Shown here piece by piece: positions 30,475-34,662 of a DNA stretch of 34,662 bases; within the stretch, counting starts at the first letter, position 1, and each line of letters starts with the position of its first letter. The notes beneath the pieces are model-generated. The model saw only the letters and a program-made list of their open reading frames with translations. It was not told where the DNA came from and ran no database searches. Source of the stretch: Cyanobium sp. Morenito 9A2 (GTDB lineage Bacteria; Cyanobacteriota; Cyanobacteriia; PCC-6307; Cyanobiaceae); the NCBI RefSeq assembly GCF_024345575.1, contig NZ_JAGQBJ010000019.1, positions 1-34,662 on the forward strand, written 5' to 3'. The translations under genes and the position numbers were made by a program.

Positions 30475-31320
30475 ATGACTCTCGCCAACGCTGCCTACCT
30501 GGGCATCAAGCGTTTTGTTGACGATCGCAGCAAGGAAAACTGGCCCAACGGCAACGACGATGAAAAATCCCGGCTGATCTACGCCGTCTACCAACAGGTG
30601 CTCGGCCGCCAGTACGTTCTGTCCAGTGAGCGCCTGGAGGGTCCGGAATCCCTCTTCCGCCGCGGTTACCTCAGCGTGCGCGAGTTCGTTCGTCAGGTGG
30701 CCAAGAGCGGTGAGTACCGCCGCCGCTTCTTCGACGACACAAATGCCTACAAGTTCATTGAACTGAACTTCAAGCATCTCCTTGGCCGCGCCCCCCAAAA
30801 CAAGGCAGAGGCGCTGCACCACTTCACGATCCTTCAAGAGAAGGGCTTCGAAGCTGAAATCGACTCCTACCTCGACAGCACTGAGTACCAGCATCGCTTT
30901 GGAGAGGAGCAGGTTCCCTTCATCCACGGCCTGGGTTATTCGGCTGGCCAACACGGCCTGCAGTTCTCCTATCTGCTGCAACTCACCCGCGGTGTCGCCG
31001 CCTCTGTCAAAGGTGACATCGTCAAGAACCAGTCCCGACTAAACCCCGCCATTCACAAGGAAGCTCCGCTGCCCGTGATCAGCCCCAACGCCAAGGGCTC
31101 CACCTTCCGCTCAGCCCGCGCCGATGGGGTGACCCGCCAAGGCGTTGGTGCCGGCGAGGAAGGTCGCACCTTCCGCGTCGAAATCAGCGGCTTCAATAAT
31201 TACCGCCTCCACAAGCGGAGCAACCGCGTGCGCTTCATCCCCTTCAACAAACTGCTTGAGTATCAGCAGCAGATCCATCGGGAAGGCGGTCGCATCGCCA
31301 GCATCACTCCGGTGAACTGA
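30475..31320 (+). CDS. cpcC: Phycocyanin rod linker (first copy)
   Basis: A 281-residue phycobilisome rod linker. The N-terminal PBS-linker domain (residues about 20-155; IYAVYQQVLGRQYVLSSERL, ESLFRRGYLSVREFVRQVAK, KFIELNFKHLLGRAP) is followed by a C-terminal CpcD-like domain (about 225-280; FRVEISGFNNYRLHKRSNRV, RFIPFNKLLEYQQQIHREGG, RIASITPVN). It joins stacked phycocyanin hexamers. cpcD follows 36 bp later. Compared with the second copy at 33329 it is clearly similar but diverged, mostly in the middle region. Confidence 0.95.
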   Translation: MTLANAAYLGIKRFVDDRSKENWPNGNDDEKSRLIYAVYQQVLGRQYVLSSERLEGPESLFRRGYLSVREFVRQVAKSGEYRRRFFDDTNAYKFIELNFKHLLGRAPQNKAEALHHFTILQEKGFEAEIDSYLDSTEYQHRFGEEQVPFIHGLGYSAGQHGLQFSYLLQLTRGVAASVKGDIVKNQSRLNPAIHKEAPLPVISPNAKGSTFRSARADGVTRQGVGAGEEGRTFRVEISGFNNYRLHKRSNRVRFIPFNKLLEYQQQIHREGGRIASITPVN

Positions 31321-31356: not shown

Positions 31357-31632
31357 ATGAAGGTCTCCGCAGGCAACCGCAGCACCAGCTCCAGCTCCAC
31401 CCGTCAGGTCACCGTCCAGGTGACCGGGCTGGCCCGCAACGACTACGCACGCTCCTCCGATGTGGAGTTGCACATTCCCTTCACCCGCTTCAATGAAACG
31501 CTGCAGATGGTGAACCGCATGGGCGGCAAGATCACCAGTGTGAGCGTCACTGGCGAAGGCACCGCCGCCTCCGCCAAACCGGCAGCGCCCCGCAAGAGCA
31601 ACAAGAGGCCAGGGGCACCCGCCGAAGGCTGA
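31357..31632 (+). CDS. cpcD: Phycobilisome rod-capping linker CpcD
   Basis: A 91-residue small linker matching the CpcD family, which closes the distal end of the phycocyanin rod. The CpcD domain runs about residues 15-65 (RQVTVQVTGLARNDYARSSD, VELHIPFTRFNETLQMVNRM, GGKITSVSVTG), followed by a Pro/Lys-rich tail. The ATG at 31357 is preferred over a TTG at 31339 that adds six low-complexity residues. It is followed by a terminator at 31670-31691, so cpcC1-cpcD forms one unit separate from cpcB1-cpcA1. Confidence 0.93.
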   Translation: MKVSAGNRSTSSSSTRQVTVQVTGLARNDYARSSDVELHIPFTRFNETLQMVNRMGGKITSVSVTGEGTAASAKPAAPRKSNKRPGAPAEG

Positions 31633-31669
31633 GACGCTGGCCCAGGTTGGGCTTGAAGTCCTGATTTAC

Positions 31670-31691
31670 CCCCCCTCAACGGGGGGCTTTT
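31670..31691 (+). terminator. Terminator after cpcD
   Basis: CCCCCC at 31670-31675 pairs with GGGGGG at 31681-31686 around TCAAC and is followed by C and four T. It lies about 37 bp after the cpcD stop. The short T tract makes it moderate in strength. Confidence 0.75.
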
Positions 31692-31831
31692 CATGGCTGC
31701 GGCACCAAGAGGTTCAAGGAGCAACATTCGCTGTCTCCGTTGTGACATGGTCAACCCCCAGCGCCCTTAAGGCATTGGGCAAACCCCTTGCAGCGCAGTT
31801 GGTTTCCAGAGGCAGTGACCATTTGTTAAGA

Positions 31832-31856
31832 CCTGCTCATGGTGGCCATAAGCAGG
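31832..31856 (+). promoter_or_regulatory. Imperfect hairpin upstream of cpcB1
   Basis: CCTGCTCATGG at 31832-31842 pairs with CCATAAGCAGG at 31846-31856 with one mismatch, around TGG. It lies about 145 bp before cpcB1, near a weak TTGTTA (31823-31828) that could be a -35 element. It may be an operator, a leader stem or chance. Confidence 0.3.
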
Positions 31857-32000
31857 AACAACAATATGAGGGTTCAATCGACTGGCCGGGCGCTTACGCC
31901 AGCCGCCTCGAGAGACACCGTGGGGCCTCCCCCAAGAGCCCACGCCTCCCAATTCCATCCCACCTCCAACCCTCGGGTTGGATCTCCTAGCCCCTTACAC

Positions 32001-32522
32001 ATGACCTACGACGCCTTCACCAAGGTCGTTGCTCAGGCTGATGCCCGCGGCGAATTCCTCAACGGTGGCCAGATTGATGCCCTCGCGGCGATCGTCGCTG
32101 ACAGCAACAAGCGGCTGGATTCTGTGAACCGGATCACCTCCAACGCTTCCAGCATCGTCACCAACGCCGCCCGCGATCTGTTTGATCAGCAGCCTGCTCT
32201 GATCGCCCCCGGTGGCAACGCCTACACCCACCGTCGCATGGCCGCCTGCCTGCGCGACATGGACATCATCCTCCGCTACATCACCTACGCCACCTACCTC
32301 GGTGATGCGTCCGTGCTGGAAGATCGTTGCCTCAACGGCCTCCGCGAAACCTACCTGGCCCTCGGCGTCCCCGGCGCTTCCGTGGCTGAAGGCGTTCGCA
32401 AGATGAAGGACGCTGCCCTTGGTCTGGTCAACGACCGCAACGGCATCACCCCCGGTGACTGCTCCGCCCTGGTTTCCGAAATCGGCACCTACTTCGACCG
32501 CGCCGCCGCCGCTGTCGGCTGA
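32001..32522 (+). CDS. cpcB: Phycocyanin beta subunit (first copy)
   Basis: A 173-residue phycocyanin beta chain. Counting the initial Met, chromophore cysteines are Cys83 (MAACLRDMD, the Cys82 site) and Cys154 ([10 protein letters not shown], the Cys153 site). Asn73, the methylated Asn72 of the family, is present. It forms the alpha-beta monomer with CpcA. I start at MTYDAF (32001); the frame runs upstream to 31839 but homologues begin here. The first 117 bases are identical to those of the second cpcB at 34546. cpcA follows 48 bp later, and the pair ends at the terminator at 33094-33119. Confidence 0.98.
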
Positions 32523-32570
32523 TCCCCTCGGTCCTTCTGGTCCAACTCTTCTTCTCCTTCTCTTCTACCC

Positions 32571-33062
32571 ATGTCGAAGACTCCCCTCACCGAGGCCGTT
32601 GCCGCAGCCGACTCACAAGGTCGGTTCCTGAGCAACACCGAGCTCAACGCTGCCTTCGGTCGTTTCGAGCGCGCCAAGAACGCCCTTGAAGCTGCCAAGG
32701 CCCTCACCGCCAAGGCTGATGAGCTCGTGAACGGCGCCGCCCAGGCCGTCTACAACAAGTACCCCTACACCACCCAGCAGCAGGGCAACAACTTCGCCTC
32801 CACCCCCCGCGGTAAGGCCAAGTGTGCCCGTGACATCGGTTACTACCTTCGTCATGTCACCTACTCCCTGGTGGCTGGTGGCACCGGCCCCCTCGATGAG
32901 TACCTGATCGCCGGTCTCGACGAGATCAACCGTGCGTTCGAGCTCTCCCCCTCCTGGTACGTCGAAGCCCTGACCTACATCAAGGCCAACCACGGCATTG
33001 CCGGCGACCCCGGTGTCATCGCCAACAACTACATCGACTACGCCATCAATGCTCTGATCTGA
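32571..33062 (+). CDS. cpcA: Phycocyanin alpha subunit
   Basis: A 163-residue phycocyanin alpha chain with one bilin cysteine, Cys85 counting Met (the Cys84 site) in [18 protein letters not shown]. The opening [20 protein letters not shown] and the C-terminus [12 protein letters not shown] are typical. No second cysteine is present, as expected for C-phycocyanin. It is cotranscribed with cpcB1 and followed by a terminator. Confidence 0.98.
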
Positions 33063-33093
33063 ATCCCCCAAGGATCCTTCAGACCTGTTGCCG

Positions 33094-33119
33094 GGGCCCT
33101 CTTTGGGGGCCCTTTTTTT
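33094..33119 (+). terminator. Terminator after cpcB1-cpcA1
   Basis: GGGCCC at 33094-33099 pairs with GGGCCC at 33107-33112 around a seven-base loop, followed by seven T, about 31 bp after the cpcA stop. The stem is short but very GC-rich. Confidence 0.85.
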
Positions 33120-33200
33120 ATGACTAAACAATCGATCTGCGCGTGGTGTTGGGTGTAACAATTCCGGCGCATACCCCCCAAAATGTCCTACCGACAGCCA

Positions 33201-33219
33201 TACAATTGGGAGCGCTCCC
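33201..33219 (+). promoter_or_regulatory. -10 box with overlapping palindrome before cpcC2
   Basis: TACAAT at 33201-33206 matches the -10 consensus at five of six positions. The perfect 12-bp palindrome GGGAGCGCTCCC at 33208-33219 lies directly downstream, where the transcription start would fall. A leader of about 115 bases before cpcC2 would result. Operator or leader-hairpin function is inferred. Confidence 0.45.
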
Positions 33220-33328
33220 GTTGGACACAGAAGGAACGCTGCGGCTGCGGCCCCTAGGCTGCGGCCGGATTTCGTCGGCGTCTCTCGCCGTTTGACTCTT
33301 TTCTCCCCACCACCCGAGTGCCTCCTCC

Positions 33329-34180
33329 ATGACCCTCGTCAACGCCGCCTATCTGGGCCTCGATCGCTACGCCAGCAACCAAAACAATGAGAACTGGGCC
33401 GCTGGCTCCGATCAGGAGAAAACCGCACTGATCAATGCGGTGTATCGCCAGGTGCTTGGTTACCAGTACCTGATGGCCAACGAGCGCCTCACCGGCGCTG
33501 AATCGTTGTTCCGCAACGGCTACCTCAGCGTGCGTGAGTTCGTTCGCACGGTGGCCAAGAGTGGTTTGTATCGCGAAAAGTTTTTTAATAACACCAATCC
33601 CTACCATTTCATTGAGCTGAACTTCAAGCATCTGCTCGGTCGTGCGCCAGAAGGGAAAGCTGAAATGCTCCATCACTTCTCGCTACTGCAAGAGCATGGC
33701 GTGGAGGCGGAGATTGATTCCTACATCGACAGTGAGGAGTATCAGAACCGCTTCGGAGAAGAGCAGGTGCCGTTCCTGCACGGTTGGGACTACTCCGCCG
33801 GTCAGGTCGGCCGCCAGTTTTCCTGGCTGCTTCAACTCACCCGTGGGGTCGCCGCCTCGGTCAAAGGCGACCTCACCGGCAACAGTTCCCGGCTGGGCAA
33901 GGCCCTTCACCAGGATCGGGCCCTTCCCGTCGTCAGCCCCAACGCCAAGGGGGCCGGCTACCAGCCCACCGGCGCCGCCAACGAATCGATCACCCAAAGC
34001 GCCCGAGGCATCGGTGAAAAATCCCGCGTCTACCGCGTGGAGGCCACCGGCCTCACCAACTACCGCCTGCACAAGCGCAGCAGCATCGTTCGCTTCGTGA
34101 CCTTCGACAAGCTGCTGGAAGCCCAGCAAGCGATCCACCGCCAGGGCGGTCGGGTGGCCAGCGTTTCGCCTGTCAACTGA
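33329..34180 (+). CDS. cpcC: Phycocyanin rod linker (second copy)
   Basis: A 283-residue rod linker with the same domain order as the first copy: PBS-linker domain about residues 20-155 (INAVYRQVLGYQYLMANERL, ESLFRNGYLSVREFVRTVAK, FIELNFKHLLGRAP) and CpcD-like domain about 227-283 (YRVEATGLTNYRLHKRSSIV, KLLEAQQAIHRQGGRVASVS). It differs from the first copy throughout, so it is a diverged paralogue and probably sits at a different position in the rod. No cpcD follows; it is a single-gene unit with its own terminator. Confidence 0.95.
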   Translation: MTLVNAAYLGLDRYASNQNNENWAAGSDQEKTALINAVYRQVLGYQYLMANERLTGAESLFRNGYLSVREFVRTVAKSGLYREKFFNNTNPYHFIELNFKHLLGRAPEGKAEMLHHFSLLQEHGVEAEIDSYIDSEEYQNRFGEEQVPFLHGWDYSAGQVGRQFSWLLQLTRGVAASVKGDLTGNSSRLGKALHQDRALPVVSPNAKGAGYQPTGAANESITQSARGIGEKSRVYRVEATGLTNYRLHKRSSIVRFVTFDKLLEAQQAIHRQGGRVASVSPVN

Positions 34181-34241
34181 GCCGAGTGGGCCAAGGGGCT
34201 TCCACCCCTAGCGCTTCTCCTCAATCTCCGCCCATCTCGAT

Positions 34242-34271
34242 CCCGGCAGCTTCATCAGCGCCGGGTTTTTT
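34242..34271 (+). terminator. Terminator after cpcC2
   Basis: CCCGGC at 34242-34247 pairs with GCCGGG at 34260-34265 (loop of 12 bases) followed by six T, about 60 bp after the cpcC2 stop. Confidence 0.75.
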
Positions 34272-34322
34272 ATGGCCTGCTCGCAAACAGAGCTACGGAA
34301 AATCTTCAGATTTCAATCAACC

Positions 34323-34352
34323 TTGGGCACGGTCACGGCATGGCCTGACAAT
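34323..34352 (+). promoter_or_regulatory. Possible promoter of the second cpcB
   Basis: TTGGGC (34323-34328) and GACAAT (34347-34352) are separated by 18 bases. This would give a leader of about 185 bases. Both boxes are imperfect. Confidence 0.3.
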
Positions 34353-34512
34353 AGTGATGACCCTTTGTGAACTTCCCATCGAAGTGCGCCGTTCTTTCGC
34401 AGAATGCACGAGGTCAAGCGAAGGCATTCGGCCCACGGGCATCGCCGTGAATCTGATGCTTTCGATGGCTACGTGGGTCATCATCAAATGACCTCACCGA
34501 TCCACCCAACCC

Positions 34513-34526
34513 CGACGCTAGCGTCG
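34513..34526. promoter_or_regulatory. 14-bp palindrome before the second cpcB
   Basis: CGACGCTAGCGTCG is a perfect 14-bp palindrome in the leader, followed by AGGAG (34532-34536), a good ribosome-binding site for the ATG at 34546. It could form a leader hairpin close to the site or be a protein-binding site. Confidence 0.4.
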
Positions 34527-34545
34527 AGAATAGGAGCTCTTATCT

Positions 34546-34662
34546 ATGACCTACGACGCCTTCACCAAGGTCGTTGCTCAGGCTGATGCCCGCGGCGAAT
34601 TCCTCAACGGTGGCCAGATTGATGCCCTCGCGGCGATCGTCGCTGACAGCAACAAGCGGCTG
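34546..34662 (+). CDS. cpcB: Phycocyanin beta subunit (second copy, cut by window edge)
   Basis: The first 39 codons of a second cpcB ([20 protein letters not shown], then on to SNKRL). All 117 bases are identical to bases 32001-32117 of the first copy, including third positions. The gene continues past the end of the window. A good AGGAG ribosome-binding site lies upstream, unlike the first copy. A cpcA partner is expected beyond the edge. Confidence 0.95.

Follow-up and report, generated by a model that had tools for sequence, protein, structure and literature searches.

The window, that is, the whole stretch of 34,662 nt that we analysed (Cyanobium sp. Morenito 9A2, GCF_024345575.1, contig NZ_JAGQBJ010000019.1), very probably (we would put it at about 0.88) breaks off within the second cpcBA copy of a rod cluster that has two or more of them, copies that are homogenised by recombination and preceded by leaders related by position, the break itself resulting from the repeat. 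According to the explanation that we propose, the phycobilisome rod cluster would have the order cpcC1-cpcD-cpcB1A1-cpcC2-cpcB2A2-cpcEF, of the type of the phycoerythrin-lacking picocyanobacteria, with two or more phycocyanin operons, and the window would end within the second of these. Homologous recombination between the direct repeats, by gene conversion or by unequal crossing-over and deletion, would keep cpcBA and its terminator near-identical, and each copy would retain its own upstream region, descended from the same ancestral position.

Gene content of the rod cluster

The window is an entire contig (C11) of a draft assembly of 26 contigs (3.10 Mb, 99.8% complete). Upstream of the rod genes, Pfam recognized a CpeT/CpcT protein and another linker. 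The features considered here are the following:

30475..31320, + strand: gene for a rod linker, labelled cpcC1 by position from the gene order, as in PMC2246261 (PBS_linker_poly and CpcD domains in Pfam)
31357..31632, + strand: cpcD, rod-capping linker (Pfam CpcD domain; start chosen at 31357 in a frame open from 31339)
31633..32000, + strand: leader 1, 368 nt (distal part nearer the first leaders in 18/22 relatives)
31815..31830, + strand: promoter-like conserved motif of leader 1, GTGACCATTTGTTAAG (base after TGACC other than C)
31965..31982, + strand: hairpin TCCAACC/GGTTGGA upstream of the copy 1 start, with no Shine-Dalgarno after it
32001..33118, + strand: repeat of 1118 nt that begins with the cpcB ATG and closes on the T run past cpcA (117 nt at either end equal the readable parts of copy 2, which is unread over the intervening 884 nt)
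32001..32522, + strand: cpcB copy 1, encoding the phycocyanin beta subunit of 173 aa (317 bits with NCBIfam TIGR01339, cut-off 279)
32571..33062, + strand: cpcA copy 1, encoding the phycocyanin alpha subunit of 163 aa (284 bits with NCBIfam TIGR01338, cut-off 269)
33093..33119, + strand: terminator-like hairpin and T run 3' of cpcA (common to copy 2 up to the T-run length)
33329..34180, + strand: gene for a rod linker, cpcC2 by position (PBS_linker_poly and CpcD domains in Pfam)
34181..34545, + strand: leader 2, 365 nt (distal part nearer the second leaders in 17/22 relatives)
34357..34372, + strand: promoter-like conserved motif of leader 2, ATGACCCTTTGTGAAC (TGACC followed by C)
34513..34526, + strand: hairpin CGACGC/GCGTCG upstream of the copy 2 start
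34531..34536, + strand: TAGGAG, Shine-Dalgarno of copy 2, within the family-wide context GTCGAGAA-N-AGGAGCT
34546..34662, + strand: cpcB copy 2, of which the contig includes the first 117 nt before it ends

Four terminator-like sites were found in the region against 2.6 expected, so that the hairpin at 33093..33119 is weak by itself. The CpcB protein begins with MTYDAF (32001-32018) in both copies, one residue longer than the MFDAF of the relatives compared. In the genome itself, PF00502 matched eight times: two phycocyanin genes, three nearest to allophycocyanin, two matches within one frame of 1082 aa, and one at C2:34909. No phycoerythrin was present among the five PF00502 genes named by NCBIfam in this 99.8% complete draft.

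Two entries into and two exits from the cpcBA block

The first-pass annotation had described the start of the second cpcB as an exact match to the first, and this is what we found: positions 34546-34662 equal 32001-32117 at 117/117 bases (E ~1e-55, far above chance), the base that precedes the ATG being C in one copy and T in the other. Taken alone, silent identity over 117 nt is modest evidence, because the nearest relatives by cpcBA, WH5701 and G053, show just 3 and 4 silent codon differences from the window, respectively, among the 37 comparable codons (with 7 non-silent differences in each). It is backed by the other end of the repeat. The first 117 bases at the 5' end of another contig (C3) equal 33002-33118, which covers the end of cpcA, the stop and the terminator, and the sequence differs thereafter, leading to a cpcE-like and then a cpcF-like gene. 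The comparable sequence of copy 2 in this genome thus amounts to 234 nt, identical at 117/117 bases at each end; the 884 bases that correspond to 32118-33001 lack assembled sequence in copy 2 and are assumed to be identical as well. The same annotation had confined the identity to the coding part. The identity indeed starts at the ATG, but it extends 56 nt beyond the cpcA stop, through the terminator-like hairpin.

Two different leaders enter the block and two different sequences leave it, one towards cpcC2 and the other towards the cpcE-like gene; there are therefore at least two cpcBA copies, and a single collapsed cpcB, which had been named as the outcome that would refute the earlier reading, was set aside on these grounds. 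When the cpcBA block was used as a query against its own genome, the start of C3 was the single further end, besides one weak match. The CpcF-like protein of C3 scores above the NCBIfam cut-off; for its neighbor, the best model is CpcE at 244 bits, below the cut-off of 330. The rod-cluster order, namely two cpcB-A with cpcC1, cpcD, cpcC2 and cpcE/F, is thus found here with a CpcE below cut-off and with the join from copy 2 to cpcEF over the 884-nt gap drawn from the gene order in relatives. Searches of the genome returned no further, unlinked cpcB; an identical hidden one would leave additional contig ends, of which none was seen.

Contig C11 ends, and contig C3 starts, with overlaps of equal length (117 nt), which look like the overlap length of the assembler. 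The break at copy 2 most likely arose in assembly on account of the repeat, as the earlier annotation had suggested, and it has many parallels: contigs end 50-385 nt inside cpcB in 27/53 loci of relatives, in a survey where cpcB starts were located in 47/53 loci.

Copies of cpcBA within and between genomes of relatives

To place the two copies in their family, we used a set of 22 relatives, made up of 10 loci and 12 genomes, in which the copy number ranges from two to six and which together contribute 54 copies. The multi-copy genomes were chosen among the best matches listed; of 20 regions fetched, 12 were used and 8 were left out as matching loci already in the set. The third cpcB of Synechococcus sp. 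GFB01 (L028:8255-8769), whose frame is broken by mutation or assembly error, was left out of distances and tree but retained where leaders and Shine-Dalgarno motifs were counted. No difference was scored at N letters.

Copies of one genome differ by 0-6 of ~1010 coding nt, with no difference at all in 11/22 relatives, and the nearest other genome is 10-114 coding nt away. At silent sites, the corresponding values are 0-4 differences between copies of one genome against 10-72 to the nearest other genome. In every one of the 22 relatives, the copies are closer to each other than to those of other genomes, and copies 1 and 2 also have the same untranslated spacer between cpcB and cpcA. A tree with 54 rows, window included, required 22 genome-label changes, the minimum possible; copies of one genome stand together in 20/22 sets, the exceptions being L024 and L026, whose copies pair in 63% and 18% of bootstrap trees, respectively. 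A constraint joining all first copies was rejected (p-AU 0.017; the 11 sets of identical rows stayed unconstrained). The exact match between copies 1 and 2 extends 0-79 nt above the ATG and 1-98 nt below the cpcA stop, except in G077 (526) and G207 (1721), where longer units repeat. The extents seen in the window (0 nt above the ATG, 56 nt below the stop) fit these ranges.

The order of two copies with cpcC2 between them, as a two-copy or larger array, is present in 20/22 relatives, and copy number is two in 16/22. Others differ in detail, as does G195 (L115), in which cpcC2 is absent and the two cpcBA copies stand side by side. Extra units reach six (three in GFB01, six in G207), and here unequal recombination is visible. 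Since the flanks are orthologous by position, the copies are older than the species, as concerted evolution requires. The earlier annotation had spoken of recent gene conversion or concerted evolution. Concerted evolution by recombination is borne out in the 22 relatives; "recent" does not hold as the main story, because the arrangement and its homogenisation are common to these relatives and the leaders are related by position. The family pattern fits long-running concerted evolution rather than one recent event, and the evidence for lasting homogenisation across the family is good. The present comparison does not tell gene conversion apart from crossing-over with re-amplification, and we infer the mechanism.

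Several other arrangements were observed among the loci. L116 (G207:C1:528500-548000) carries six cpcBA copies at a spacing of 2437 nt, separated by five cpcC2-like linkers. Copies 1, 3 and 5 share one sequence and copies 2, 4 and 6 another, which differs from it by a single base, as might follow from repetition of a two-unit block or from assembly. Three or four cpcBA copies are present in L107, L114, L121, L122 and L028, a linker gene lying between them in some only. Three of six fetched loci with an unlinked cpcB were compared (L096 of G207, L097 of G195 and L102 of G135): these genes are 0-4/519 nt from the operon copies of their own genome, have unrelated flanks, and show no Shine-Dalgarno in the 60 nt shown. 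In the window's own genus, one other genome was compared (L095, G001:C8:42000-58000); it has a single distant cpcBA (79% CpcB identity) beside other phycobiliprotein-like genes, and the rod cluster thus differs within the genus.

Leaders of the two copies

That the two copies have separate leaders, as annotated at first, is supported. The leaders had also been called unrelated, which is right over most of their length: the distal parts of leaders 1 and 2 of the window reach a local score of 19, and the shuffled mean over genome pairs is 18.2. Both nevertheless share one promoter-like motif, TGACC-N-TTTGT-N-AA, located 186 nt (leader 1) and 189 nt (leader 2) before the ATG, in which the N base after TGACC is A ahead of copy 1 and C ahead of copy 2. 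This motif or a close form of it occurs in 52/54 leaders of the 22 relatives. The base after TGACC is not C in 22/22 first leaders and is C in 29/32 later leaders; among the remaining later leaders, the motif is absent in 2/32 and A follows TGACC in one. A sigma-70 scan of 31600-34662 found no promoter (0 against 0.7 expected), and the conserved motif is accordingly what the promoter claim is drawn from.

When the last 60 nt before the ATG are set aside, the distal leaders of copies 1 and 2 score higher against leaders of the same position than across positions in 208/253 genome pairs (the opposite in 36, ties in 9). Their mean scores are 48.3 at the same position, a value inflated by close strains among the 22 relatives, 22.2 across positions and 18.2 after shuffling. 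When leader 1 was searched against 40 genomes, its own included, the window's own leader was the sole match. The relation of the leaders by position indicates that the second cpcBA place is old and that the coding block has been homogenised since.

Shine-Dalgarno sequences and hairpins near the start

The statement that AGGAG occurs only before copy 2 is correct inside 25 nt of the ATG. GGAG lies at most 25 nt from the ATG in 54/54 cpcB copies of the 22 relatives, and copy 1 of the window is without it. In an overlapping set of 60 starts, found by pattern in 47/53 loci of relatives, 59 have a Shine-Dalgarno-like motif. The first-copy cpcB of one MAG contig (L029:451) has a leader that lacks a Shine-Dalgarno, contains CCTAGG and is unlike its own second leader; it is either real or a mis-join.

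Copy 1 of the window retains a hairpin at the same place as the relatives, with other letters. The best stem before the start has 4.48 pairs on average against 3.53 in shuffled sequences, and it exceeds its own shuffled mean in 60/64 distinct leaders; covariation lends it little because the hairpin sequence is mostly the same. A CGAC-loop-GTCGAGAACAGGAGCT element is conserved before cpcB in most relatives (34513-34542 in the window), where it forms a hairpin just upstream of the Shine-Dalgarno. This hairpin could be a translation control element.

Alternative explanations

A duplication of cpcBA in the window's lineage alone, too young to have diverged, would also give copies that are identical where readable, and the copy number of relatives does vary from two to six units. 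However, the two-copy order with cpcC2 between is shared by 20/22 relatives and the window's leaders follow the position-specific leaders of these relatives, which makes the second place older than the lineage; we set such a duplication aside as improbable, given the relation of the leaders by position. More room is left for an array larger than two, in which the cpcC2-cpcBA unit would be tandemly amplified and collapsed by the assembler. The two contigs of the window would look the same in that case, and repeated units do exist in GFB01 (three) and G207 (six), but 16/22 relatives have two copies, and we consider a larger array unlikely.

Phycocyanin is very highly expressed, and strong selection on every base, through codon use and high expression, might keep the copies alike without recombination, in line with the limited non-silent change between species. 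The silent sites nevertheless change between species (10-72 against 0-4 within a genome) and the untranslated cpcB-cpcA spacer is identical too (22/22 relatives). This comparison contradicts selection as the only cause, which we regard as highly implausible. An assembly artefact, with one cpcBA and a second start produced by a mis-join, deserves just as little credence: the contig ends inside the repeat and the MAG leader of L029 may itself be a mis-join, but the block is entered from two distinct leaders and left by two distinct exits, and the order is that of the relatives, single-contig genomes included. Old, recombining copies with positional leaders remain the preferred reading.

Relation to known phycocyanin operons

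The arrangement was already known in relatives, and our finding mostly repeats what has been published. According to Six et al. 2007 (PMC2246261), WH5701 and RS9917 (pigment type 1 Synechococcus) have two identical cpcB-A operons in a rod region whose gene order, cpcC1-cpcD-[cpcBA]-cpcC2-[cpcBA]-cpcEF, matches that of the window. Both strains are also described there as carrying an unlinked third cpcB, in contrast with the window's genome, where none was found; this gene is reported for two strains and does not define the type. The AGGAG motif is present in both leaders of WH5701 and in leader 2 only of the window.

Synechococcus elongatus UTEX 2973/PCC 7942 belongs to a distant lineage, and its likeness to the window concerns the arrangement as published. 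Its cpcB1A1/cpcB2A2 share with the window cpcBA coding sequences that are identical (in the window, at the readable ends of copy 2), divergent 5'-UTRs and promoters, linkers between the copies and an adjoining cpcE, as described in PMC6091082, PMC10053587 and PMC10433846, which also give unequal cpcB1A1/cpcB2A2 transcript levels measured in S. elongatus. PMC6091082 describes, in UTEX 2973, a pair of identical cpcBA whose 5'-UTRs diverge and whose transcript levels differ.

Long-lasting concerted evolution ascribed to recurrent gene conversion has been described for psbA, psbD and other prokaryotic genes (PMC6053082). The likeness to cpcBA is that paralogues in conserved, different contexts cluster by species. 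The terms cpcA, cpcB and phycocyanin are absent from the main text of PMC6053082, and nothing on gene conversion or concerted evolution of phycocyanin genes appeared, by title or abstract start, in the open-access literature searched.

Significance

The window presents a known arrangement in a new genome, with the missing Shine-Dalgarno of copy 1 as one small peculiarity. A wider proposal, which we offer tentatively and judge rather less probable than its opposite, is that lasting concerted evolution acts across the family, with tracts that would end near the start codon and after the terminator, that it reaches the unlinked third cpcB, and that copy 1 of the window's lineage gave up its Shine-Dalgarno leader, so that identical subunits would stand under two translation controls. 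If this is true, no difference would build up between the proteins, and the leaders would diverge by position. The arrangement is likely to serve to raise the output of a very abundant protein through two promoters that are tuned separately, a dose effect and a separate regulation that we infer.

The two cpcBA leaders offer a natural comparison, with one protein behind two different leaders. Finally, the repeat explains why many draft picocyanobacterial contigs end within cpcB and why a phycocyanin copy can go missing from drafts, and missing copies matter where cpcBA serves as a marker or is counted.
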